A DNA stretch of 64,000 nt, from positions 1,627,001 through 1,691,000 of the forward strand of contig NZ_CP058648.1 of assembly GCF_018141405.1 (NCBI RefSeq), read 5' to 3'. Of the stretch, positions 1,282-61,503 are shown piece after piece. The notes under the pieces were generated by a model. It was given only the letters and a program-made list of their open reading frames with translations, had not been told where the DNA came from and did no database searches. This stretch comes from Serpentinicella alkaliphila (GTDB taxonomy: Bacteria; Bacillota; Clostridia; Peptostreptococcales; Natronincolaceae). The translations under genes and the position numbers were made by a program. Within the stretch, counting starts at the first letter, position 1. The number at the start of each line of letters is the position of its first letter.

Positions 1282-2460
1282 TTAGACTTGTGGAACAAAT
1301 GCAGTATTGTTTTTTAGGAGGTAGTAAATTACCCTAATTAACTTTTTACCGACATGGCATCTGGCAACATTGAAGTGTTTGCCTTCAGAACGCTTTTTGA
1401 CCATATAATCACTAAAGACTTTATCGCGCATAGCAACAAGTCTAGATGCTTGCATAATAGCCCACCTAAGGTATGTAGAGCCTCTCTTAACCATTGGAGT
1501 TTTAGATGCATTGTAAGTCCCAGATTGGTAAGTAGAAGGATCCATACCTGCAAATGCAAGAAGTTTAGCTGGGTTGGAGAAACGATCAATATGACCAATT
1601 TCAGCTAATATAATGGCAGCTAGAGTATATCCAATGCCAGGAATAGTAATGAGTGGGGTATTGAGTTCTTGTACGACTAATTTAATTTGATTATCTAATG
1701 CATCTATTTCTGTTTGTACAGATTGTATGAGGCGAATAGTTTGTTGTAATTCGAAGGCTGTAGAGCGATTGCTTGACCCAATAGATTTGATAGCAAGCTC
1801 TTTTAAAGCAATTGCTTTCTCTTTGCTATATTTACCTTTAGAGGCTGTTCTTATTAGGTTTGTCAACTTTGTCAGATTGCAGTTGTAAATACTATCGGGG
1901 GTTGGTAATTCAATTAATAATGCATATTTGGAACTTTGGTGTATAGACCAAAATAAGCTTGGCAATTCAGGAAAAATGATATCTATTAAGCGACTAACTG
2001 AAAGTTTAAGTCTAGAACGGTAACTAACCATTCTATGACGGTGTCTTGTTAGTGACTTTAGCTCCTGAATCTGATATGATACTGGTGAATAGGATTTAGA
2101 TTCATCAGTAAAGAGCATAGTTGCAATGACCTTAGCGTCGGTCTTATCTGTTTTAGTTTTCCTAAGGGTTTGAGCCTTACGGAAAAGATTAGTAGCCAAT
2201 GGATTTAGGATGGTGACCTGAAAGCCTTTGGAATACAGATAATTTGTGATATTTGTGCTGTAATGACCTGTTGATTCAAGTCCTATTTTTACGTTGTTAA
2301 TACTCTTGGAGCCAAGAGCAGAAAGGATAGAAGAATATAGGGTATCAAAACCTTCCTTAGAATTAGAAATACGTAAAGAATTAGTATGAATAACACCATC
2401 AGAGTCTAAGATACAGCAATCGTGTTTAGCTTTGGCAACATCAATGCCCACAAATAACAT
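1282..2460 (-). CDS. IS110-family transposase (DEDD recombinase)
   Basis: With the start at the ATG nine bases after AAGGAG (minus strand), the protein has 392 residues, the normal length for IS110 transposases. The N-terminal RuvC-like half starts MLFVGIDVAKAKHD with the first catalytic Asp in GIDVAK, followed by a KTDKTDAK segment that holds further acidic residues. The C-terminal transposase_20 half has PGIGYTLAAIILAEIG and the AFAGMDPSTYQSG motif containing the nucleophilic serine of the Tnp domain. IS110 enzymes are DEDD recombinases that act with an element-encoded bridge RNA. The reading frame is uninterrupted, so the enzyme could be active. An ATG three codons earlier is less well placed for the ribosome site. 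Confidence 0.93.
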   Translation of the reverse strand: MLFVGIDVAKAKHDCCILDSDGVIHTNSLRISNSKEGFDTLYSSILSALGSKSINNVKIGLESTGHYSTNITNYLYSKGFQVTILNPLATNLFRKAQTLRKTKTDKTDAKVIATMLFTDESKSYSPVSYQIQELKSLTRHRHRMVSYRSRLKLSVSRLIDIIFPELPSLFWSIHQSSKYALLIELPTPDSIYNCNLTKLTNLIRTASKGKYSKEKAIALKELAIKSIGSSNRSTAFELQQTIRLIQSVQTEIDALDNQIKLVVQELNTPLITIPGIGYTLAAIILAEIGHIDRFSNPAKLLAFAGMDPSTYQSGTYNASKTPMVKRGSTYLRWAIMQASRLVAMRDKVFSDYMVKKRSEGKHFNVARCHVGKKLIRVIYYLLKNNTAFVPQV

Positions 2461-2477
2461 AGTAATCAACTCCTTAA

Positions 2478-9624: not shown

Positions 9625-11301
9625 ATGAAGAAAGTATATAACATGTCAATTAGTTTGCGTACACGGTTTGCAGGAACAATTACTTTATTTATGATTGTAT
9701 TAACTATATTATTAAGTTTTGTAATAGGACAAAGGTCTACTCAAGAGGTTAGAAGTGAAATTGGTAACTCTCTTGCAGAAATGGCTTTTCAAATGGCGGA
9801 TAAACTGGATCAGTATATGTGGTCAAGATATGGGGAAATAGAAATAATGACGGAATTGGAAGCATTAAAAGAGCCTAAGGATTTTATGGTAATCGAAAAT
9901 TTGCTTAATAGGTTACAAATTAGTTTTCCTTCCTTCTCATGGATTGGTTATATAAACCCAGAAGGAGTAGTAAAAGCTGCTACTGGAGGTATTCTGAGGG
10001 AACATGACATATCTAGCCGTCCTGTTTACATAGAAGGTATGAAAGGTCACTTTATTGGTGATGTACATGATGCAGTACTTCTTTCAAATCTATTACCAAA
10101 TCCTACTGGGGAACCAATGAAGTTTGTGGATATAAGTATACCAATTTTAAATTCAGAAGGTCAATTATCAGGTATATTGGCAGCGCACCTGAGTTGGGAA
10201 TGGGCGAAGGAAGTTGAGATATCGCTACTAGAGCCTCTAAGAAACCGTAAAGGTATAGAGCTATTTATTGTAAGCGCAAATGATAATACGATTTTATTAG
10301 GACCAAATGAGTTAATTGGTCAAACACTTAATCTGAATAGTATAAATAACGCGGGTTTAGGTAAAAACAGTTGGGATTTAGAAGATTGGGGTAATGGCAA
10401 GAAATATTTAACAGGTTATGTTAAGGCAAATGGGTACATGAATTATCCAGGTTTGGATTGGGTAGTACTTGTGAGACAACCTATAGAAGAGGCATATTTA
10501 ACTATTGCTAACTTAAAAAAATTCATTCTAAGACTTGGTCTAGTTATTTCTACTCTATTTGCAATAATTGGATGGATAACGGCAAATAAGGTAGTGAAGC
10601 CATTACAAGAAATTGCAATGGCAGCAGATAGATTGAAGGTTGGGGAGAAAGTTGCTATTCCGAAGCATAAAGGTATAAAGGAAATAGAAATATTAGAATC
10701 ATCTTTAAGTCAATTAATAGGTAGTCTTATCCACACCGAAAGTGCTTTAGGCGAAATGGAGAATTTAGCCCAACACGATGCTTTAACAGGTTTACCAAAT
10801 AGAATTGCATTGGATTTTCATATTGAAGAGGCAAAGAAGAAAGCGACTAGGAGTGGATTAACACTAACTTTTCTGTATCTGGATTTAGATGGTTTTAAAC
10901 AAGTTAATGACTTATTAGGTCATAATGTTGGTGATATATTATTACAACGAGTAGCAATAATACTCAAGGAAAATGTCCGGGATGACGAGATAGTAGTTAG
11001 ACTAGGTGGTGATGAGTTTCTAATGGTACTCTACACTTCTTTAAATAAATCTAGAGAAAACGGTACAGTCGTAGCAGATCGAGTAATTAGTGCACTTAAT
11101 AAACCCTTTGACATTAATGGAAATATTGCTAAAATAGGCTGTAGTATTGGCGGAGCTGTTTGGCCATCAGATGGTATTGATACAATAGAAATAGTTAGAT
11201 TAGCTGATGAAGCACTATATATATCAAAACGTACTGGAAAAAATAAAACAACATTTCATCAAGATTATGACAGTTCGTTAAAGGAAGAGTATAGTGTATA
11301 G
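9625..11301 (+). CDS. membrane diguanylate cyclase with Cache-type sensor and GGDEF
   Basis: The 558-residue protein has an N-terminal membrane segment (about 15-37), a large extracellular region (about 40-295) that looks like a double Cache ligand sensor, a second membrane segment (about 297-318), a HAMP-like linker and a C-terminal GGDEF domain (about 385-550). The active site RLGGDEF is intact, as is the NLLGHN-type helix LDLDGFKQVNDLLGH, so it should make c-di-GMP from GTP. The inhibitory site in front of GGDEF reads RDDE instead of RxxD, so product inhibition may be weak. The ribosome site before the chosen ATG is poor; a second ATG at codon 7 is possible. It is convergent with a second GGDEF gene. 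Confidence 0.88.
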   Translation: MKKVYNMSISLRTRFAGTITLFMIVLTILLSFVIGQRSTQEVRSEIGNSLAEMAFQMADKLDQYMWSRYGEIEIMTELEALKEPKDFMVIENLLNRLQISFPSFSWIGYINPEGVVKAATGGILREHDISSRPVYIEGMKGHFIGDVHDAVLLSNLLPNPTGEPMKFVDISIPILNSEGQLSGILAAHLSWEWAKEVEISLLEPLRNRKGIELFIVSANDNTILLGPNELIGQTLNLNSINNAGLGKNSWDLEDWGNGKKYLTGYVKANGYMNYPGLDWVVLVRQPIEEAYLTIANLKKFILRLGLVISTLFAIIGWITANKVVKPLQEIAMAADRLKVGEKVAIPKHKGIKEIEILESSLSQLIGSLIHTESALGEMENLAQHDALTGLPNRIALDFHIEEAKKKATRSGLTLTFLYLDLDGFKQVNDLLGHNVGDILLQRVAIILKENVRDDEIVVRLGGDEFLMVLYTSLNKSRENGTVVADRVISALNKPFDINGNIAKIGCSIGGAVWPSDGIDTIEIVRLADEALYISKRTGKNKTTFHQDYDSSLKEEYSV

Positions 11302-11317
11302 TCATTGATAATAAAAG

Positions 11318-11341
11318 AGAGGATAGTGTTTACTATCCTCT
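11318..11341. terminator. terminator between convergent GGDEF genes
   Basis: AGAGGATAGT and ACTATCCTCT form a perfect 10-bp stem with a GTTT loop. The T-rich tail is better on the minus strand (CTTTTATTAT). Confidence 0.8.
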
Positions 11342-11348
11342 TAAAGCT

Positions 11349-13916
11349 CTACAGTAAATTACGATTTGACGACTTATTTTCATACATGGCATTGTCAGCC
11401 TTTTCGATTAAATCATCAATTGACTCACAATCCTCTTGATATTGTGAAAATCCATAGCTAATACTTATGTTATATGGGCTAGATCCAGTTAGGTTATATT
11501 CTTCTATGGAAGTTATAATTAATTCTAATGTATTTTTAGCTTCCTCTAAGCTTAAGTCATCAAAGATAATCAAAAACTCATCTCCGGCAAATCTGCAAAG
11601 CATATCAACTTCACGCAAGGTTGATTTTATGAGTTGACATACGACTGTTAGTAGATTATCACCTTCTCTATGGCCAAAGGTATCATTTATTACTTTTAAG
11701 TCATTTACATCTATAAAACAGATCGTTGTTTGAAAGGTTGATTCCTGGGATTTTTTTATCTGCTTATTTAAATGTTCTATTCCTGCTCTTCGATTAGGAA
11801 CTCCTGTTAAAGAGTCGGTTAAAGCAAAATAACGTTCTTTTTCTTCAGCTATTTTTCTACTTCTTATATTAATATACATCAACAATACAATAATACATAA
11901 GGATGTAAAAATTGAAACTAATGACACAAAAACCTTTTTGTTGTTTGTGTAATAGTCAATAATAGAGTTTGGTTTGTTAATTACTATACTTCCATTAGGT
12001 AAGTTTCTCATACTTAGATTAAATTTTTTAAGTACGCTGTAATCAAACATATAAATATTAGGACTATCTATAACAACAGGTATTTCACTAGGTTTTTCAC
12101 CACTTAATATTGAAATGGCCATATCACCTACAGTTTGTCCATGGGTAAACCCAGAGGTAAGAACTCCACCTAAGAGACCCTTTCCTAAATAAAAATCCCA
12201 TACTCCATAGATTGGCACACTTGCATTTTTTGAAATCAGACTAATACTTTCATCATATGAAAAATTGTTATTAGACTTATCTCTATTAAATGACAATAGC
12301 AAAATTATACTATCATGGTTAATAGTTTTTACTTTTTCTTGAATTTCCGGCATATTGTAGTTATCCCAAATTTCAAAAGAAACTACATCATTATAAAATG
12401 GCAAAATTAGATCAAGATTTTTTCGATTCGCTTGACCGGTTACTGTAGTATCATTAATTACTATAATATTATTAACTTTAGAATTAATCTGAAGTGCTAC
12501 ATCAATTGTCCCTTTTAAGTCGTAGGACTCTACTACACCAGTGAATAAGTCATGGTTTTCAATCATAGACTCCTCAAAATAATTTACACCACAAAAAATC
12601 GCTGGTACATTCTTAAATATTTTATCATGGTACATCTTTACAAAATTAAATGCTACATCATCAGTAGAGATAACTAAATCAAATTGTTTATTCTTATACT
12701 TTCTAATAAGAAGCTCATATAAATGTTGAAGATACACGGGATCAGTATTTCTTTGTACATCCATAAATTCATAAGTGAATTCGATATTGTCCATACTGGC
12801 ATCTAATTTGGATTTAATACCTAATTCTAAATCATCAGTCCACTTTAGTCCCTTATTATATGAATTCAGAATAAGTATTTGTTTTTTTGATGGCTTAGCA
12901 ACATTAATGACTATGCTATTTTGCGGAAGTAATTCTAACGGGATATTATGCTTCTCCAACTGCTTAAAATCAAATTCATAGCTCGTTGTTTTTTCAGTAA
13001 CAACAGGTATATTTGACGGATGTTCTCCGTTTAAAATCCTAATTGCAATTTCAGCAGCGGTTTTACCTTGATAGAAACCACTTGTTAACTTACCACCAAC
13101 AATACCATGACCTAAAGTGAAGTTCCAAACACTATAAATGGGGATCGAACAATTTTGCTCTATCATTGAAACAGCTTCATAATAATCATAGTGATTACCC
13201 TGATTATCTTTAAAATAGATCAAATACAAAATAATACTATTTTGAGGTAAACTATTTACTGAATTAATAATTTCCCTAAGGTTTTCCTCATCAAGCTTAA
13301 TGAAATCTAATCTATCAGAGTATTCAGGTATTACATTTGAGAATTCCCTCATAATTGATACACCCGTTGTTGTATCATCAACTACATAATATACTGTTTT
13401 AGTTTCGGGATGGAGTTTAATTGCAGTATCAATTGTTGCACCAATATCAAAACCTTCCACAACACCGGTATACGAACTATGGTTATTAATCATTTGTTGT
13501 TCAAAATAATTTACACCACAAAAAACAACAGGAGTATTTGGAAACAGCTGGTCTCCATATTTTAAAAGGAATTCAAAAGCAGCATCATCAGATGAGATAA
13601 TCAAATCAAAATTTCTATCACTAAATTTATATCTATAAGTATCCAAAAGGAGTTGTAAATACTGACTATCCACTACTCTTTGAGTATCCATATATTCTAC
13701 TTGTAATTTTATGTTTGCATAATCGGAATTAAGGACAGATTTAATACCATCAAAAATATCATCACTCCATTTATAACCTGAATGATATGAATTGATAAAT
13801 AGAACAGTTTTTGTTTCTAAAGTAGAGGAGCTATAAGCTTGTACATTTATATAAGAGAAATTAGTTATAAATAATAGTGCTAAGGCTAAGGATAGGATTT
13901 TATAATATTTTTTCAT
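11349..13916 (-). CDS. tandem ABC-substrate-binding-like domains fused to GGDEF
   Basis: The chosen ATG lies seven bases after GAGG and gives 855 residues with a signal peptide. An in-frame start 14 codons earlier has no ribosome site. Two homologous extracellular domains of about 320 residues follow, each like the ABC transporter substrate-binding family PF04392. Paired motifs are LFINSYHSGYKWSDD / LILNSYNKGLKWTDD, VFCGVNYFEQ / IFCGVNYFEE and VVDDTTTG / VINDTTVTG. Then come one membrane helix (VSLVSIFTSLCIIVLLMYI) and a GGDEF domain. The active site reads RFAGDEF, an AGDEF variant known in some active cyclases. It likely senses a ligand outside the cell and changes c-di-GMP inside. A broken paralogue follows upstream on the same strand. 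Confidence 0.85.
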   Translation of the reverse strand: MKKYYKILSLALALLFITNFSYINVQAYSSSTLETKTVLFINSYHSGYKWSDDIFDGIKSVLNSDYANIKLQVEYMDTQRVVDSQYLQLLLDTYRYKFSDRNFDLIISSDDAAFEFLLKYGDQLFPNTPVVFCGVNYFEQQMINNHSSYTGVVEGFDIGATIDTAIKLHPETKTVYYVVDDTTTGVSIMREFSNVIPEYSDRLDFIKLDEENLREIINSVNSLPQNSIILYLIYFKDNQGNHYDYYEAVSMIEQNCSIPIYSVWNFTLGHGIVGGKLTSGFYQGKTAAEIAIRILNGEHPSNIPVVTEKTTSYEFDFKQLEKHNIPLELLPQNSIVINVAKPSKKQILILNSYNKGLKWTDDLELGIKSKLDASMDNIEFTYEFMDVQRNTDPVYLQHLYELLIRKYKNKQFDLVISTDDVAFNFVKMYHDKIFKNVPAIFCGVNYFEESMIENHDLFTGVVESYDLKGTIDVALQINSKVNNIIVINDTTVTGQANRKNLDLILPFYNDVVSFEIWDNYNMPEIQEKVKTINHDSIILLLSFNRDKSNNNFSYDESISLISKNASVPIYGVWDFYLGKGLLGGVLTSGFTHGQTVGDMAISILSGEKPSEIPVVIDSPNIYMFDYSVLKKFNLSMRNLPNGSIVINKPNSIIDYYTNNKKVFVSLVSIFTSLCIIVLLMYINIRSRKIAEEKERYFALTDSLTGVPNRRAGIEHLNKQIKKSQESTFQTTICFIDVNDLKVINDTFGHREGDNLLTVVCQLIKSTLREVDMLCRFAGDEFLIIFDDLSLEEAKNTLELIITSIEEYNLTGSSPYNISISYGFSQYQEDCESIDDLIEKADNAMYENKSSNRNLL

Positions 13917-14045
13917 TATATAACCTCGCAATTTGTTGAAATATATGTACTTATTCAACTATTATATCATTGTAAGAGATTAACAGGAAGTACAATATTT
14001 AGTGATTCTACATATTTTCCAAAATTTACAAATACTATTAATAAA

Positions 14046-14077
14046 CTAGCCCTCTTTATATAATTAAAGGGGGCTAG
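14046..14077 (-). terminator. terminator of the second binding-domain/GGDEF gene
   Basis: CTAGCCCTCTTTA (14046-14058) pairs with TAAAGGGGGCTAG (14065-14077) with one G-T pair. The minus-strand product runs into TTTATT. Confidence 0.75.
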
Positions 14078-14092
14078 TGATTTCTATAAAAC

Positions 14093-16652
14093 TTAATTGT
14101 TTAATTGACGACTTTTAACCTTAGATTGGTACATGGCATTATCTGCTTTGTCTATAAGGTCATCGATAGATTTATATTCATCGGGGTTATATTCAGAAAA
14201 CCCATAACTAAAACTTATCTCATAAGCATTATTATTACTATGATTATATTCAGTAATACACTTAGTGATTTCATTTAATATGGATTTAGCCTCCTCGATG
14301 CCTATATCACTAAAAATAATTAAGAATTCATCTCCAGCAAATCTACAAAGCATATCAACACTACGTAGCTTTGGTTGGATTAGCCTACATAAAGCAGATA
14401 GTAAATTATCTCCTTCTCTGTGCCCAAAGGTGTCATTTACTATTTTAAGGTTGTTAACATCAATAAAACAAATAGTGGTTTGAAATTTGCCATACTGGGA
14501 CTTTTTAATAAGTTTTTCTAAATGTTCGATAGCTGCTCTTCTATTTGGTATTCCAGTTAGTAAGTCTGTTAATGCATAGTATCTCTCTTTATTATGAGAA
14601 GCCTTCAAATATATTAATAAAAGAATTATACATAACACTAAAAAAAATGGAGGCAGTTGATAATAGAACTTTTTTATTATCCTGATAGTAATCAAATATT
14701 GTACTCGGTTTGTTAATAATAGTACTGCCTATAGGAAGTTTATCTATATTAATACTAAACTTTTTTAGCATAAAGTAATCAAACATATAGATATTAGGAC
14801 TTTCAGTAACAACTACTATTTCCGAAGGATATTTTCCATTCAAAATTTCAATAGCCATATGGCCTACAGTTTCACCATGTGTTATGCCGGAGGTGAGTAC
14901 ACCACCAAGTAACCCTTTTCCTAAGTAGAAATCCCATACTCCGTATATTGGAACGCTTGCATTTTCTGAAATTAGACTTATGCTCTCATCATAGGAAAAA
15001 CTATTATTTGATTTGTCCCTATTAAGGGATAAAAGTAGAATAATATCTTCAGTATTTAGTGATTTTACTCCTTCTTGAATTTCAGCCATAGTTAAGTTGT
15101 TCCATATTTTGAATGACACTCTATCTGAATATTCTGGAATAATAATATCTAGATTTTTTTGATTAGATTGACCAGTAATAGTTGTATCATTGATAACAAT
15201 AATATTTTTAATTTTAGGATTAATTTCAAGAGCCATATCTAATGTGCCTCTTAAATCATAGGATTCAACAACTCCTGTTAAAAAATCATGCTCTTCGAGC
15301 ATGCATTCCTCAAAATAATTAACTCCACAGAAAATACTAGGTATTCCTTTAAAAACATTATTATGATGAGTCTTAATAAAATTAAAGGCAACATCGTCTG
15401 TAGTAATAACTAAATCAAATTGTTTGTCTTTGTATTTTCTTATAAGTAATTCATATAAGTGATGAAGATATACGGGGTCAGAATTTCTTTGTGAGTCCAT
15501 ATATTCATATGTAAATTCTAAATTTAAATTGCTCTCTGCTAATTTAGATTTAATACCAAGTTCTAAGTCATCAGTCCACTTTAAACCTTTATTATACGAG
15601 TGTAATATTAAAATTTGTTTTTTAAAAGGACTGGATTTATTAATTATTTTGCTATCTTGAGGAAGCAACTCTAAGGGGATATTATGTTTTACTAATTGGT
15701 TGAAATCAAATTCATAGTGAGTAGTTTCTTCAGTTAAAACTGGTATATTATTGGGTTGCTCTCCGGCTAAAATTCTTAATGCAATCTTTGCAGCAGTTTT
15801 ACCTTGATAAAATCCATTTGTTAGTTTTCCACCAACAATGCCATGCCCAAGATTAAAATTCCAAACTCCGTAGATAGGAACTGAACTATTTTGTTCTATC
15901 ATAGAAATGGCTTCATAGTACTCATAGTAGTTATTTTGGTTATCTCTAAAGTGAATTAAATATAGAATAATACTGTTTTTAGAAAGGAAGCTAACTTTAT
16001 TAATTATTTCATCAAGATTTTCCCCATATAACTGTACAAAATCTAAATTACTAGAGTAACCAGATATACTTTTTGAAAACTCCTTCATTATTGAGTTACC
16101 AGTAGTTGTATCATCTACTATGTAGTATACATTTTGAATGTACGGATGAAATTTTATTGCAGTATCTATAGTAGAGCTTATATCAAAGCCTTCTATTACA
16201 CCTGTAAACTGCTTATGATTATCAATAGTGCTTTGTTCAAAGTAGTTAACTCCACAAAAAACAACCGGAGTTTCAGGAAACAATTCGTTGCTATGCTTTA
16301 TTAGGAATTCGAAAGCTGCATCATCTGATGAAATTATTAAATCGAAATATTTATCTCGGAATTTGTATTTATATGTATCTAATAATAATTTAAGGTATTG
16401 CTCATCTACGCCTCTTTGAGTATCCATATACTCAACCTGAAGCTTTATTTTATCAGGCCCAGAATTTAGTACCGATCTAATGCCATCATAGATATCATCA
16501 CTCCATTTATAACCTGAATGATAAGAATTTAAAAATAGAATATTTTTTGTTGTATGAGTAGGTTTAGATGTATTAGCTATAACAACCGAAAAAGATTTAC
16601 TTAAAAATAACAGAAAAAATATTAATGATAGTATCCTAATAAAACGTTTCAT
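14093..16652 (-). pseudogene. tandem binding-domain/GGDEF paralogue, frameshifted at a T8 run
   Basis: This gene parallels its neighbour along its whole length: signal peptide, two PF04392-like domains (FLNSYHSGYKWSDD and LHSYNKGLKWTDD), a membrane helix and GGDEF with RFAGDEF. The reading frame breaks in the membrane helix. The upstream frame reads ASIFFSVM then strays to a stop at 14592, while the other frame continues PFFLVLCIILLLIYL into GGDEF (to 14093). The switch point is a run of eight A on the plus strand (14640-14647; eight T in the coding strand). One base more or less restores a protein of about 850 residues. It may be a phase-variable gene, a pseudogene, or a homopolymer read error. 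The start follows TGAGG. Confidence 0.8.
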
Positions 16653-16895
16653 TAATCTAACCTCACATTTAGTCGAATTATGTTAAAAGTAATTATATCA
16701 CTGCAAAAGTGCAACAGGAAGTACTATATTTTATAAAATATAAGTATTTGAGAGTAAGGATTTATAAATAGTATATAAAATAATGAAAGGTAAAGTTTTT
16801 AAATTAATTAAAACGCCTTGTATATATTATCTTTTAAGTTTAATATTTATTTCAGAAGTATATCAATTACACAGAATAGGGAAGGACTGTATTAG
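16653..16895. other. intergenic region, promoter area only
   Basis: This stretch of about 240 bases between divergent genes is AT-rich. It presumably holds the promoters of the GGDEF paralogue (minus) and the cysteine-cluster gene (plus). A 60-codon plus-strand frame inside it has no ribosome site and overlaps the next gene, so I do not call it. Confidence 0.4.
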
Positions 16896-17153
16896 ATGGA
16901 ATGTAAAATCGGTTGTGCAGCATGTTGTATTGCACCTTCTATTTCTTCTTCAATTCCTGGTATGACTAAAGGAAAACCCGCGGGAGTTAGGTGTATTCAG
17001 TTAACTGACGATAATAAATGTAGGTTGTTTGGAAAAAAGGATAGACCAAAGGTGTGTAGTAACTTAAAGGCTTCTTCAGAAATGTGCGGAAATTCAGCAA
17101 GTGAAGCTTTTAAGTATCTTGAAGAATTAGAACAGGCAACAGTACCCGATTAA
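16896..17153 (+). CDS. YkgJ-type cysteine cluster protein
   Basis: The 85-residue protein begins MECKIGCAACC, with cysteines 3, 7, 10 and 11 forming the N-terminal part of the PF03692 (YkgJ) zinc/iron-chelating pattern, and adds RCIQL, CRLFG and RPKVCSNL cysteines later. Proteins of this family are thought to bind Zn or an Fe-S cluster; no reaction is established. The length fits the short members found in clostridia. A ggaagg ribosome site lies before the ATG. It stands alone between the GGDEF genes and the ECF sigma operon, without evidence of co-transcription. Confidence 0.8.
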   Translation: MECKIGCAACCIAPSISSSIPGMTKGKPAGVRCIQLTDDNKCRLFGKKDRPKVCSNLKASSEMCGNSASEAFKYLEELEQATVPD

Positions 17154-17472: not shown

Positions 17473-17970
17473 GTGTTTGAGATTGAAGAACTATATATGA
17501 ACTATAAGGATGATGTATTTTATTACTTAATGAGTCTCACACACGATTATGCTCTTTCTGAGGATTTGTTATCGGAGACTTTTACGAGTGCAATTAAAGG
17601 CATTACAAATTTTAAAGGAAACTCTTCAATTAAAACATGGCTTTTTTCGATAGCTAGAAACTTATGGCTACTACATCTACGTAATACTAAGAAGAGTATA
17701 GAATATAATGATATGATAGGTATATATGTTACTGAAACATTAGAAGACAACTTTTTTACAAAAGAGGCAGCAGAAAGAATACAAGAGCTAATAAATACTA
17801 AAGACAAGCGAACACAAGAAGTTGTGAGGATGAGAATAGACGGAATACCATACGCAGATATAGCAGTTAGACTAACAATATCTGAAAGTTCAGCTAGGGT
17901 TATAGATTTTAGATGTAAAAAATGGCTTAAGAATATATTGTACGAGGAGGGGCTATATGAACCAACATAA
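17473..17970 (+). CDS. ECF-type RNA polymerase sigma factor
   Basis: A GTG start six bases after AGGAGG gives 165 residues. Region 2 is seen in YKDDVFYYLMSLTHDYALSEDLLSETF and the helix SIKTWLFSIARNLWLLHLR (promoter melting and -10 contact). Region 4 is seen in TQEVVRMRIDGIPYADIAVRL with the helix-turn-helix ISESSARVIDFRCKKWL (-35 contact). It lacks regions 1 and 3, as expected for group 4 sigma factors. The next gene, overlapping by 14 bases, encodes a zinc-finger membrane anti-sigma factor, and a third overlapping gene follows. It should direct an extracytoplasmic stress response and probably its own operon. Confidence 0.92.
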   Translation: MFEIEELYMNYKDDVFYYLMSLTHDYALSEDLLSETFTSAIKGITNFKGNSSIKTWLFSIARNLWLLHLRNTKKSIEYNDMIGIYVTETLEDNFFTKEAAERIQELINTKDKRTQEVVRMRIDGIPYADIAVRLTISESSARVIDFRCKKWLKNILYEEGLYEPT

Positions 17971-18514
17971 GTCAAATATATCATGTGGTATCTGCCAGGA
18001 TCTCATACCATTGGTTCTGGACAACGTGGCTAGTGAAGATAGTCAAAGAATTGTTACTGCACATGTAGAATGCTGTAAAGACTGTGAAATCCTATATAAT
18101 AGTGTTAAAGGTCCAGATTCTAATCTACAGGATGATAGTAAGATTATTAAGTCCATAAAGAGAAAAATTTATTTTAGTTGTATTGCACTTCTTGTAATTG
18201 GAACTATGATTGGAGTGTATCTGTCTAATTCAATGGGGATGTTCTATAACATTATATTAATGCCTATGATAGGTGCAATTGCCTATTACATCCTAGGGAA
18301 AAGATGGTATATTGTATCTGTAGGTGTTTTCATAACTTCTTACATTTGGTTATTTGTCGGATTTGTTATTGAATACCGTAAATTAGCCATAGAAATATTT
18401 TATTACCCTATATATTTAACCGCTATATATACAGCTCTGACAGTTATTGGAGTTTTTGTTTCGAAATTATTGTATTTTGCTTTTAAAAAGGAAGGGGTAA
18501 AACATGTTAAATAA
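17957..18514 (+). CDS. membrane anti-sigma factor with zinc-finger (ZAS-type)
   Basis: The 185-residue protein has an N-terminal zinc-binding anti-sigma motif: a first pair CGIC (C10, C13) and the hallmark HVECCKDC (His36-x3-Cys40-x2-Cys43). About four hydrophobic segments follow (roughly residues 70-90, 92-108, 112-135 and 145-172), so it sits in the membrane with its zinc domain inside. Such proteins hold their ECF sigma factor inactive until an envelope signal arrives. Its start overlaps the sigma gene by 14 bases, which favours matched amounts of the pair. The extra membrane helices, beyond the single one of many anti-sigmas, could themselves sense the signal. Confidence 0.88.
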   Translation: MNQHKSNISCGICQDLIPLVLDNVASEDSQRIVTAHVECCKDCEILYNSVKGPDSNLQDDSKIIKSIKRKIYFSCIALLVIGTMIGVYLSNSMGMFYNIILMPMIGAIAYYILGKRWYIVSVGVFITSYIWLFVGFVIEYRKLAIEIFYYPIYLTAIYTALTVIGVFVSKLLYFAFKKEGVKHVK

Positions 18515-19268
18515 AAATAGAGTTTTAAAAGTTATAGCAGGATTGTTAGCATTACTAATAGTTTCAGGATTGTTATTTATTGTTAATTCATTTGTTGGAA
18601 ACCCAATTTCTGCGAGTATTGCAACATCAAAAATTAATTCTTATGTGCAAGCAAATTATTCAGATTTAGAATTAGAAGTATCAAAGGCAACATATAATTT
18701 TAAAACCTCAGCATATCAATCATTCGCTGTATCTAAAAAAAGTGAGGATACCAGGTTTTCAATTAGCTGGCGAAAAGGCCATATTTCAGATTACTATGAG
18801 TCTGAGGTAGTGAGCAGATTCTCAACTTATAGGAGGCTAAGTGAGGAGTTTGATAATGCAATAGAAAGAATAATTTCTGAGGAGTTTCCATATGAAGTAG
18901 ATTTGATAATCGGGGATTTTGCAAAAAGTGAAGGGGATTTTAGTACTTTAGTTTTAGATATGCCGTTGGACATACATAATCCACCCCTAAAGACTACGCT
19001 TACCATATGGACTTTTATTGAGGAATATAGCTATGAAGCATTGGCAGAGCAACTTTTGGACTTACATAGGCTAATGTTAAAACATCAAATACCAATTAAT
19101 GAGTATTCATTAAGATTAGTGAAAGATTATAGAAATTCTGAAAAGAAAGAGTTTACTCCAGATGAGTTTTATATATTTGATTTCCCTGCAGAATTTATTT
19201 ATGAACATGGCTTAATTGAAAGAATAAAAGATCATCAAAAAGATTATGAAACTAAATATAGTAAATAA
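18504..19268 (+). CDS. YfjL-like membrane-anchored extracytoplasmic protein
   Basis: The 254-residue protein has one N-terminal membrane anchor (VIAGLLALLIVSGLLFIVNSF) and an outside domain beginning NPISASIATSKINSYVQANY, the pattern of B. subtilis YfjL-like proteins. A Lys/Asp-rich tail ends the chain. No enzymatic motif is seen. The gene follows aaggaaggggt and overlaps the anti-sigma gene by 11 bases, so it is the third member of the ECF operon. It may be a target or co-sensor of the sigma factor. The function of YfjL proteins is not established. Confidence 0.72.
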   Translation: MLNKNRVLKVIAGLLALLIVSGLLFIVNSFVGNPISASIATSKINSYVQANYSDLELEVSKATYNFKTSAYQSFAVSKKSEDTRFSISWRKGHISDYYESEVVSRFSTYRRLSEEFDNAIERIISEEFPYEVDLIIGDFAKSEGDFSTLVLDMPLDIHNPPLKTTLTIWTFIEEYSYEALAEQLLDLHRLMLKHQIPINEYSLRLVKDYRNSEKKEFTPDEFYIFDFPAEFIYEHGLIERIKDHQKDYETKYSK

Positions 19269-21425: not shown

Positions 21426-23306
21426 TTATGCACCGGAGGCAATAATATTTTTTCCAGTAAATTGACTATTGTATAACTCCGCATAGAAACCCTGGTGAGC
21501 TAATAATTCTTGGTGGTTTCCTTTTTCGATGATATTACCATCATTCATAACCAAAATTAAATCAGCATCTTTAATAGTTGAAAGTCTATGTGCAATTACA
21601 AAGCTAGTTCTTCCTTTCATAAGGAGATTCATTGCTTTTTGTATATGGACTTCGGTCCTTGTATCTACACTGCTGGTAGCCTCATCTAAGATTAAAATAG
21701 CTGGATCTGCAAGTAAAGCCCTTGCAATGGTAAGAAGCTGTTTTTGTCCTTGGGAGATATTTGATGCTTCTTCTGTTAGTATTGTGTCATATCCATCAGG
21801 TAAAGTCCTAATAAAGTAATCTGCCCTTGCCGCCTTAGCTACACTTATAATTTCATCATCAGATGCATCTTTTCGTCCGTAGCCAATATTTTCTTTAATA
21901 GTACCTTTAAATAGCCATGTATCCTGCAGCACCATTCCGAATACACTTCTCAAATGCTCTCTTGTCATATCCTTTATATTTACTCCATCGATCGTAATTG
22001 TTCCACCATCGATTTCGTAGAAACGCATTAATAGATTAACTAAGGTAGTTTTACCTGCCCCGGTTGGTCCTACTATTGCAATTGTTTGACCTGCTGAAAC
22101 ATTAATATTCATAGCTTCAATTAGAGGTTCATCCTGTTTATATGCAAACTTAACATCCTCAAAGACTACATTCCCCAAAGGTTTAGTAATTGATTTACCA
22201 TTTTCAGAATCAGGTATCTCCTCTGTTTCATCAAGCAACTCAAAAACTCTTTCTGAAGATGCTATAGTAGATTGAATAATATTAGCAATATTTGCTGTTT
22301 GGATGATTGGATGCGTAAATTGCCTAGAGTATTGAATAAAAGCTTGAATGTCTCCAATATTTATAGCACCTTTTGTCGCAAGAAGGCCACCAACAACAGA
22401 AATTATCACATAACCTATATTATTCACGAAGTTCATAAGAGGCATAATTACGCCTGAGATAAAGTCAGCTTTCCATCCTGCGTTATATAGTTGATTGTTT
22501 ATTTCATCAAAGTATTTCTTTGATTTCTCTTCTAAGGAAAATGCTTTAACAATTCTGTGTCCAGTATACATTTCTTCAATATGGCCATTAAGTTTACCTA
22601 AACTTTTTTGTTGCTCAGAAAAATATTTCTGTGATTTTTTAGCAATGTTTTTTGTTACTATAGCATATAGAGGCAATGTTACTAACAGTATTAGAGTCAT
22701 AATTGGACTAATTGTAAGCATCATAACAATTATACCTATTAAAGTTATAATTGAAGAAATAAGTTGGGTTATGCTCTGTTGAAGTGTATTACTAATATTG
22801 TCAATATCATTTGTTATTCGACTTAATATTTCTCCGTGAGTATGGGTATCGTAAAATTTTAATGGTAGCTTAGAAAGCTTTTTGCTTACATCTGATCTCA
22901 TATTGTAAACTGTTTTTTGAGCAACTGTTGCCATAATAACCTGCTGTATATAGTTGAAAAGTGCGCTTAATATATAAAGACCGCATAAAGTTAGCAATAT
23001 GTTTAATATATATCCAAAATCAATTGTTGACTCACTTAGCCCATGAAGCCTTTGAATTGTACCAGAGAATAGCTCTGTTGTAATTTTACCCATAATTTTA
23101 GGGCTAACAACACTAAAACCGGTTCCTAATATTGAAGTTATGACTACTACAAATAAGTGATATTTAAATGGTTTAAGATAACCTAATAATCTTTTGAGTG
23201 TGCCTTTAAAATCCTTAGGCTTTTCGGTAGGCATTATCATTGGTCCTAGTCCAGAGCCAGGGCCTCTTCGTGGTCTGGTATTTGAGATTTTGTCATTACC
23301 TTTCAT
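21426..23306 (-). CDS. ABC exporter half-transporter, catalytic subunit (copy 1)
   Basis: The 626-residue protein joins a six-helix exporter membrane domain (about 40-340) to an ATPase domain (about 375-615). Walker A is GPTGAGKTT, the signature is ISQGQKQ, Walker B ends ILILDEATSSVD with the catalytic Glu, and the switch is IAHRLST with His. It therefore supplies the working ATP site of a heterodimer. Its partner is the preceding gene, whose TAA overlaps this ATG by one base. Heterodimers of this type (BmrCD, LmrCD, TM287/288) expel drugs or lipids. A glycine- and arginine-rich N-terminal extension (RPRRGPGSGLGP) is typical of this subfamily. The operon is headed by a MarR regulator. Confidence 0.92.
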   Translation of the reverse strand: MKGNDKISNTRPRRGPGSGLGPMIMPTEKPKDFKGTLKRLLGYLKPFKYHLFVVVITSILGTGFSVVSPKIMGKITTELFSGTIQRLHGLSESTIDFGYILNILLTLCGLYILSALFNYIQQVIMATVAQKTVYNMRSDVSKKLSKLPLKFYDTHTHGEILSRITNDIDNISNTLQQSITQLISSIITLIGIIVMMLTISPIMTLILLVTLPLYAIVTKNIAKKSQKYFSEQQKSLGKLNGHIEEMYTGHRIVKAFSLEEKSKKYFDEINNQLYNAGWKADFISGVIMPLMNFVNNIGYVIISVVGGLLATKGAINIGDIQAFIQYSRQFTHPIIQTANIANIIQSTIASSERVFELLDETEEIPDSENGKSITKPLGNVVFEDVKFAYKQDEPLIEAMNINVSAGQTIAIVGPTGAGKTTLVNLLMRFYEIDGGTITIDGVNIKDMTREHLRSVFGMVLQDTWLFKGTIKENIGYGRKDASDDEIISVAKAARADYFIRTLPDGYDTILTEEASNISQGQKQLLTIARALLADPAILILDEATSSVDTRTEVHIQKAMNLLMKGRTSFVIAHRLSTIKDADLILVMNDGNIIEKGNHQELLAHQGFYAELYNSQFTGKNIIASGA

Positions 23307-25033
23307 TAGGCTATCTCCTCCTCTGAAAGCTGAGAAGATACAATTTCTCTATATACATCGCAGCTATTTAAAAGTTGTTTATGATTACCTATGGCCGTAA
23401 TTTCTCCTTTATCTAGAACGATTATTTGATCAGCATCAATTATAGTACTTACACGCTGTGCCACAATAATTAATGTAGCTTTTTTAGTTTGGTTTATAAG
23501 CGCAGCTCTAAGTCTAGCATCTGTCTTAAAGTCTAGGGCTGAAAAGCTATCGTCAAATAAATATATTTCTGGTTTTCTAACCAGGGCTCTAGCTATTGAT
23601 AATCGTTGTTTTTGTCCCCCGGATAAGTTTGTTCCACTTTGTGAAATTACAGATTCAAAACCTTCCTTCATATTATAAATAAACTCAGTAGCCTGAGCGA
23701 TTTCACATGCCTCTTGAATTTCATCAAATGTAGCATTTTCTTTTCCATGTTTTATGTTATCTAATACAGTTCCACTAAAAAGTACTGATTTTTGCGGAAC
23801 AAAACCTATTTTATTTCTTAGTGTTTTTTGTGTTAAATCTTTAATATTTATTCCATCAACTAGAATGATACCACTATTTGTCTCATAGAATCGGGGAATT
23901 AGGTTAAGTAATGTTGATTTTCCTGAACCAGTTCCACCAATTATTGCTGTGAATTTACCTGGTTCTGCTCTGAAAGTAATATTTTTTAAAGTAGGCTCTT
24001 CTGCACCAGGATAACTAAAGGTTACGTCATTAAACTCCACTAAACCATCCTGCTTATTAGCCTCAATAAAGTTGTTAGTATCCTTAATTTCGGGTATAGT
24101 TTCTAAGACCTCATTGATTCTTACTGCTGATGCAGATGCTCTTGGTATCATTACAAACATCATTGATACCATAATTAATGCAAACATTATTTGCATAACA
24201 TACTGAATAAAGGCCATAAGATCTCCTACTTGCATAGTACCACTATTTATTCTAATAGCTCCAAACCAGATTACTGCTATTGTTGCAAAATTAAGAGTAA
24301 GAGACATTACTGGCATTAGAGCAGCCATCAATTTATTTACTTTGAGTGTTGTATTTGTAAGATCATGGTTTGCTTCATCAAAGCGTGTTCTTTCATGATT
24401 TTCCTTATTGAACGCCCTAATAACTCTTACACCAGTTAGATTTTCACGAACTACATGATTTAATTTATCAAGCTTAGTTTGCACTAATCTAAAAAGGGGA
24501 GTAACTCTTTTTCCAACAACAACAATTCCCAAGGATATTAATGGTATTATAAATACTATAGTTAATGACAGTTTTGCATCCCTTGTAAATGCCATAACAA
24601 TACCACCAATTGCCATCATCGGTGCCCTAGCCATTAATCGAAGAGACATAATTACTAAATGCTGAACTTGAGTGATATCGTTGGTTGTTCTAGTGATTAG
24701 GGAGGATGTTCCTATTTTATCAAATTCATTTAAAGAAAAGTCTTCAGCTCGTCTAAATATTGCACTACGTAAGTCTCTTCCAAATGACAAAGCAGCTTTA
24801 GCTGACAAATAACTAGATAGTATTGCACATGAAGTGCCTACTAACGCAATTATTAACATTTGACCACCAAGTTTAATAATATAAGGGGTATCTCCATTAA
24901 CTATACCTATATCAACAATGTTTGCCATTAATGTAGGAAGGAATAATTCGCTAAGGGCTTGAAGGAAAATTAATAGCAAAGCAGCAATAACTGATAGCCT
25001 ATATGGCTTTAAAAATTTAACTAATTTAAACAT
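23306..25033 (-). CDS. ABC exporter half-transporter, degenerate-site subunit (copy 1)
   Basis: The 575-residue partner has six membrane helices and one ATPase domain: Walker A GGTGSGKST, signature LSGGQKQRLSIARAL. Walker B ends IYLFDDSFSALD, with Asp instead of the catalytic Glu, and the switch reads VAQRVST, with Gln instead of His. Its own Walker site is thus degenerate, while its normal signature completes the active site of the partner. This asymmetry is the hallmark of heterodimeric type IV exporters. It lies between the MarR gene (56 bases upstream) and the catalytic subunit. A second such pair lies at 55.5-59 kb. Confidence 0.92.
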   Translation of the reverse strand: MFKLVKFLKPYRLSVIAALLLIFLQALSELFLPTLMANIVDIGIVNGDTPYIIKLGGQMLIIALVGTSCAILSSYLSAKAALSFGRDLRSAIFRRAEDFSLNEFDKIGTSSLITRTTNDITQVQHLVIMSLRLMARAPMMAIGGIVMAFTRDAKLSLTIVFIIPLISLGIVVVGKRVTPLFRLVQTKLDKLNHVVRENLTGVRVIRAFNKENHERTRFDEANHDLTNTTLKVNKLMAALMPVMSLTLNFATIAVIWFGAIRINSGTMQVGDLMAFIQYVMQIMFALIMVSMMFVMIPRASASAVRINEVLETIPEIKDTNNFIEANKQDGLVEFNDVTFSYPGAEEPTLKNITFRAEPGKFTAIIGGTGSGKSTLLNLIPRFYETNSGIILVDGINIKDLTQKTLRNKIGFVPQKSVLFSGTVLDNIKHGKENATFDEIQEACEIAQATEFIYNMKEGFESVISQSGTNLSGGQKQRLSIARALVRKPEIYLFDDSFSALDFKTDARLRAALINQTKKATLIIVAQRVSTIIDADQIIVLDKGEITAIGNHKQLLNSCDVYREIVSSQLSEEEIA

Positions 25034-61217: not shown

Positions 61218-61503
61218 AAAAAAACGCCCTAAACATGTGTAAATAAATACACATATAAAGGACGGTTATATATAGACCGCGGTGCCACCTTAATTGGTAA
61301 TGATACCCTCTTTTTTCAAATACGGGATAAATATCCGATATTCTATCTCTATAACGGGAGAACCCGTGTTGCCTACTAATTATTTCAGCTCCAACTCATA
61401 AGTCCATTCAGTACGATCGTTAATACTAGGATTCCACCACCCCTAGCTCTCTTTAAATAAACCACATACTTACTTCTCTTAATCATCACTTTAATCGTAT
61501 TTT
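61218..61503 (-). ncRNA. tryptophan T-box riboswitch leader of trpB
   Basis: On the minus strand the leader has the conserved T-box GGTGGCACCGCGGT (61276-61289) and, before it, a stem I region beginning AGAGAGCTAGGGGTGG. The specifier region reads GAATGGACTTATGAG, with TGG (61404-61406) as the probable Trp codon. The end is a terminator: CGTCCTTTATATGTGTA pairs with TTACACATGTTTAGGGCG, followed by T7 (61218-61224). Uncharged tRNA-Trp is expected to stabilise the alternative antiterminator. The fold was traced by eye. Confidence 0.9.

Follow-up and report, generated by a model that had tools for sequence, protein, structure and literature searches.

Among characterised systems, the nearest to the gene pair described here is CdgH of Vibrio cholerae, a receptor cyclase in which two serial binding domains lie outside the membrane and a GGDEF domain lies inside the cell (PMC5431781). 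The CdgH domains are PBPb domains of the arginine and glutamine/histidine amino acid-binding types (PMC5431781), whereas the outer domains of our genes A and B belong to PF04392, with a predicted type I fold, and their carriers are Firmicutes relatives. PF04392 was the sole family to match the outer part of A and B, which sets them apart from the PBPb/SBP_bac_3 type of CdgH. In Pfam family and fold the A and B domains resemble TrpX/SP1069, CD0873, and VC_1101 (Z about 24), but these are free binding proteins, two of which (CD0873 and TrpX) serve importers, whereas A and B fix two such domains to a membrane enzyme, with changed selectivity residues and in a genome that has no further PF04392 gene (none was found outside A and B in a scan of all 3.26 Mb). 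BvgS likewise has tandem flytrap domains, and the type I sensor kinase BT1754 (2X7X) has a type I binding domain on a signalling output, but both differ from A and B in their kinase output and domain families. VCA0965 of V. cholerae (PMC3974145) has the AGDEF signature and RxxD I-site of A and B but a different sensor part.

A 2022 review of c-di-GMP sensing describes binding-protein-clan domains as common on c-di-GMP enzymes, with only SBP_bac_3 studied (PMC8846402). Our search of the open-licence literature for PF04392, ABC_sub_bind, or COG2984 together with GGDEF, sensor, or cyclase returned no paper describing the A/B architecture. The receptor plan is already known, PF04392 on cyclases is uncharacterised in the searched papers, and few genomes have the tandem form, which is old. 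The earlier note's proposal of an undescribed signalling module holds for the architecture within that literature, but not for the plan, which CdgH has (PMC5431781), or for the single-domain sensor, which is widespread.

The two genes lie in tandem on the minus strand of the window, the 64,000-nucleotide stretch of DNA that we analysed (Table 1). Both pass the Pfam cut-off for PF04392 (ABC_sub_bind; 25.9 bits): gene A scores 59.5 bits over two stretches and 133.5 bits for GGDEF (PF00990), and gene B scores 68.3 bits over two stretches and 129.2 bits for a GGDEF domain in another frame. Profiles and alignment bear out the composition first read from the letters, namely paralogous genes for a signal peptide, a pair of homologous PF04392 domains, a single membrane helix, and a GGDEF domain bearing an AGDEF signature.

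Table 1. Features of the tandem-sensor locus (positions within the window)
Feature	Position	Strand	Remarks
Gene A	11349-13916	-	855 aa, intact: signal peptide, two PF04392 domains, one membrane helix, GGDEF
A domain 1	12900-13811	-	residues 36-339; predicted type I solute-binding fold; model pLDDT 93.8
A domain 2	11964-12884	-	residues 345-651; predicted fold as domain 1; 43% identical to it
A membrane helix	11823-11939	-	residues 660-698; runs on as one helix into the GGDEF domain (model)
A GGDEF domain	11358-11825	-	AGDEF signature, REVD I-site (profile and alignment)
Gene B, first frame	14592-16652	-	signal peptide and both PF04392 domains; frame lost after the membrane helix has begun
Gene B PF04392 domains	about 15630-16547 and 14703-15620	-	both in first frame
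T8 run	14640-14647	-	meeting point of the two frames of gene B, within membrane-helix codons
Gene B, second frame	14093-14695	-	rest of membrane helix and GGDEF (AGDEF, RSVD I-site), without decay
33-bp promoter-like element, upstream of B	16692-16724	-	TATAAT box
33-bp promoter-like element, upstream of A	13961-13993	-	TATAAT box
Hairpin between B and A	14045-14078		14 pairs; a consensus scan calls it terminator-like, but only for the plus strand
Hairpin after A	11318-11341	-	terminator-like; in the gap to the converging gene
Converging GGDEF gene	9625-11301	+	weak Cache match; separate sensor outside the tandem family

We consider it likely that, taken as a whole, the locus consists of a one-pass two-domain receptor cyclase with non-interchangeable domains, encoded by gene A, and a frame-broken second copy, gene B. 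In the mechanism we propose, the product of gene A would be a one-pass membrane receptor whose extracellular part is a pair of type I solute-binding domains, as profile and predicted fold show. Small molecules would bind in the clefts of these domains, closure of one or both would act on the single continuous helix (modelled, with low pTM), and the helix would alter how the inner GGDEF domain pairs or how active it is. This domain probably makes c-di-GMP, to judge from its kept residues and the active AGDEF signature of VCA0965, and the c-di-GMP would reach seven c-di-GMP-I riboswitches and other effectors. The two domains appear to have been separate in identity since before the classes of their carriers split, or since the gene moved between classes. 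Gene B would be a lineage-specific second copy with a matching promoter-like element and a faster-changing outer part. Because the frame of gene B is broken in this assembly, A alone is expected to work as drawn.

The outer domains are, in our models, type I solute-binding folds closest to TrpX-like structures. A phmmer search of one domain against solved structures gave no useful match, but the profile search did match. The domain 1 model compares with 3LFT, 6HNI, 3LKV, and 6HNJ at Z of 24.6, 24.4, 23.9, and 23.6, respectively, and with the next structural families at Z of 17.7 or less. The top solved matches are the PF04392 aromatic-amino-acid binders TrpX, CD0873, and VC_1101, and Z of 24.6-23.9 to PF04392 structures upholds the earlier reading of the outer domains as substrate-binding folds. 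The full-length model of A (pLDDT 87) contains the signal helix, both domains, helix 660-698, and the GGDEF domain, but at pTM 0.48 the placement of the domains relative to one another is not trustworthy. Structure prediction, put forward earlier as a check, thus yielded the folds of the tandem domains but not their arrangement.

At E 1e-3, a search with the outer domain found it in 21 of the 98 near genomes; at E 1e-20 it occurred in 29 genomes among 391 from the class and in 11 among 398 from the phylum. The three samples overlap partly. Across the phylum the single-domain sensor is widespread, and in nearly every case it is joined to a GGDEF/EAL or histidine-kinase output. The partly overlapping loci L028-L146 hold 115 open frames with the domain, 107 with one domain and 8 with two, the latter representing six different proteins; a second copy in genome G920 is a seventh tandem protein beyond these. 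Among 36 relatives scanned, 24 matched GGDEF, 21 EAL, and 12 HisKA, the outputs including GGDEF-EAL, PAS-GGDEF-EAL, and histidine kinases. Signalling proteins make up nearly all of the relatives fetched; one distant match, a 323-aa frame (L048), may be a free binding protein. The view that the binding domains have left transport agrees with this distribution and with their fusion to a helix and GGDEF domain in A and B. It had been argued from a lack of ABC permease or ATPase genes nearby, and indeed no genes for importers of this family were found beside the pair, but an ABC exporter pair lies in the window at 21426-25033. Throughout the phylum, PF04392 sensors coupled to cyclases, phosphodiesterases, or kinases make up a defined family.

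The tandem-domain cyclase is far rarer: the domain search suggested earlier for counting this architecture found it in 5 of roughly 1,000 genomes, namely G000 (two), HGW-Firmicutes-7 (G469), G920 (two), G784, and G917. In G784 and G917 a single-domain kinase, followed by a receiver-DUF3369-HD-GYP protein, is found within a few kb of it, so that, as read from the sequence, related sensors would face a cyclase and a likely phosphodiesterase. Such an arrangement, with the receiver-DUF3369-HD-GYP gene directly after that of the PF04392 single-domain kinase and a tandem-sensor cyclase a few kb away, is seen at L110:10397-14283 and L148:2773-6564, in two genomes of one genus. At L147:7076-12549 a head-to-tail pair of tandem-sensor cyclases lies between pyrimidine-type and glmM/glmS-like genes (names assigned by eye), and the HGW-7 locus (L007) has one tandem copy in the same setting.

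In the tree, the first domains form one clade (99/96) and the second domains another (99/94), with genomes of two classes in them, which indicates that the two domains have been distinct for a long time. The second-domain clade adjoins single-domain kinases of G011 and G784. Within A, the two domains are 43% identical, whereas A and B are 73% identical in domain 1 and 75% in domain 2; the domain doubling therefore preceded the gene doubling. The tree joins A with B (100/100), which makes the doubling in the window an event of its own. The window pair and the G920 pair show no copy-for-copy match, and the tree does not resolve how the G920 copies and HGW-7 branch.

Gene B (14093-16652) is the upstream paralog, and its GGDEF domain lies in a different frame from its outer domains. 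The description of two adjacent genes therefore stands as to a paralogous pair, but B is not one open frame and breaks at the T8 run. G920 also has two adjacent tandem copies, and both of those frames are open. We regard it as a real possibility, though not the one we favour, that B is merely a new pseudogene and A alone matters. The break within the membrane helix fits this, as does the outer part, which has 70 unique changes in B against 37 in A (p 0.002). However, the GGDEF domain of B beyond the break has not decayed: it carries 11 unique changes, compared with 13 for A, and dN between A and B is 0.25 there and 0.18 in the outer part, with synonymous sites (dS) saturated. The intact state of this domain implies that the break is very recent, is variable between cells, or is an assembly error. 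A single assembly error at the T8 run may account for it. Homopolymer error as a general assembly fault is unlikely, as other 8-9 A/T runs in ORFs of the window leave their frames open. A far more speculative scenario, which we consider very improbable, makes the T8 run a slippage switch: cells would produce either a full second double-sensor cyclase or a truncated outer receptor able to compete or pair with A, and the c-di-GMP response to two external ligands would then vary within a population.

Upstream of each gene is a 33-bp promoter-like element, of which no third copy was found genome-wide with three mismatches allowed; it was not seen in the HGW-7 relative. Its preservation despite saturated synonymous sites suggests that shared regulation of A and B has been retained. 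The element has a poor -35 region, and an activator may thus be involved.

Returning to the two-domain receptor, the earlier note suggested that it compares or integrates ligands. Two non-equivalent domains are supported by the clades described above, but binding and comparison of two ligands was an overstatement; two-ligand integration by the tandem receptor is no more than plausible. A competing account, which we judge rather unlikely, is that one outer domain alone binds ligand and the other is a spacer or dimer-building part. The CdgH dimer requires both domains and its crystal ligand occupies the first domain only (PMC5431781), and single-domain relatives work with one domain. Yet calorimetry showed amino acid binding by both CdgH domains (PMC5431781), domain 1 and domain 2 within a protein share the same residue at 32-36 of the 40 positions best conserved in the family, and both clades persist. 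The rare tandem form, with its separately evolving domains, is a natural system in which to ask whether a cyclase reads two ligands.

As to the ligand, the three nearest solved PF04392 proteins (3LFT, 6HNI, and 3LKV) hold Trp, Tyr, and Phe (PMC6816091), which would favour sensors that detect aromatic amino acids as the solved transport proteins do. We find this doubtful. The published selectivity positions are Glu/Ala and Tyr/Gln in the solved homologues (PMC6816091), but A, B, and HGW-7 have Trp and Gly, respectively, at the aligned positions (profile alignment, gap-free stretch), and identity to the solved proteins is just about 14%. With these residues replaced, the ligand is not predictable from the solved homologues. 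Conservation in the strand-end loops showed no significant excess overall (p 0.26); polar conserved residues fall there in 7 of 13 cases (p 0.006), a post hoc count that is only suggestive.

The genome encodes 24 GGDEF and 7 EAL domains and 7 c-di-GMP-I riboswitches, and a circuit is thus present for a c-di-GMP signal to enter. The AGDEF signature occurs in A and B only, the remaining tandem proteins having GGDEF, and the RxxD I-site is kept in the six intact tandem proteins and in B. That the AGDEF domains are catalytically dead receptors binding c-di-GMP through the I-site could be argued from that retained site and from a departure confined to the two copies of this genome, but is quite improbable, since VCA0965 makes c-di-GMP with AGDEF (PMC3974145) and the remaining GGDEF-fold catalytic residues appear kept in A and B (alignment by eye and general family knowledge).

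The third GGDEF gene does converge on A as first described, its Cache match being weak (29.3 bits, under the Pfam cut-off of 45). Divergent from gene B, at 17473-19268, are an ECF-type sigma factor, a zinc-finger (anti-sigma-like) protein, and a YfjL-like protein in a row, with a small cysteine-rich frame (about 16900-17150, plus strand; by eye) between the sigma factor and gene B. Elsewhere in the window, an IS110-family transposase lies at 1282-2469 (minus strand), and a T-box leader at 61255-61495 (minus strand) is the sole Rfam match. Each of two overlapping short ORFs at 5013-6511 matches the Na+/H+ antiporter family, with similar parts of the profile covered, and together they perhaps encode a two-part antiporter.
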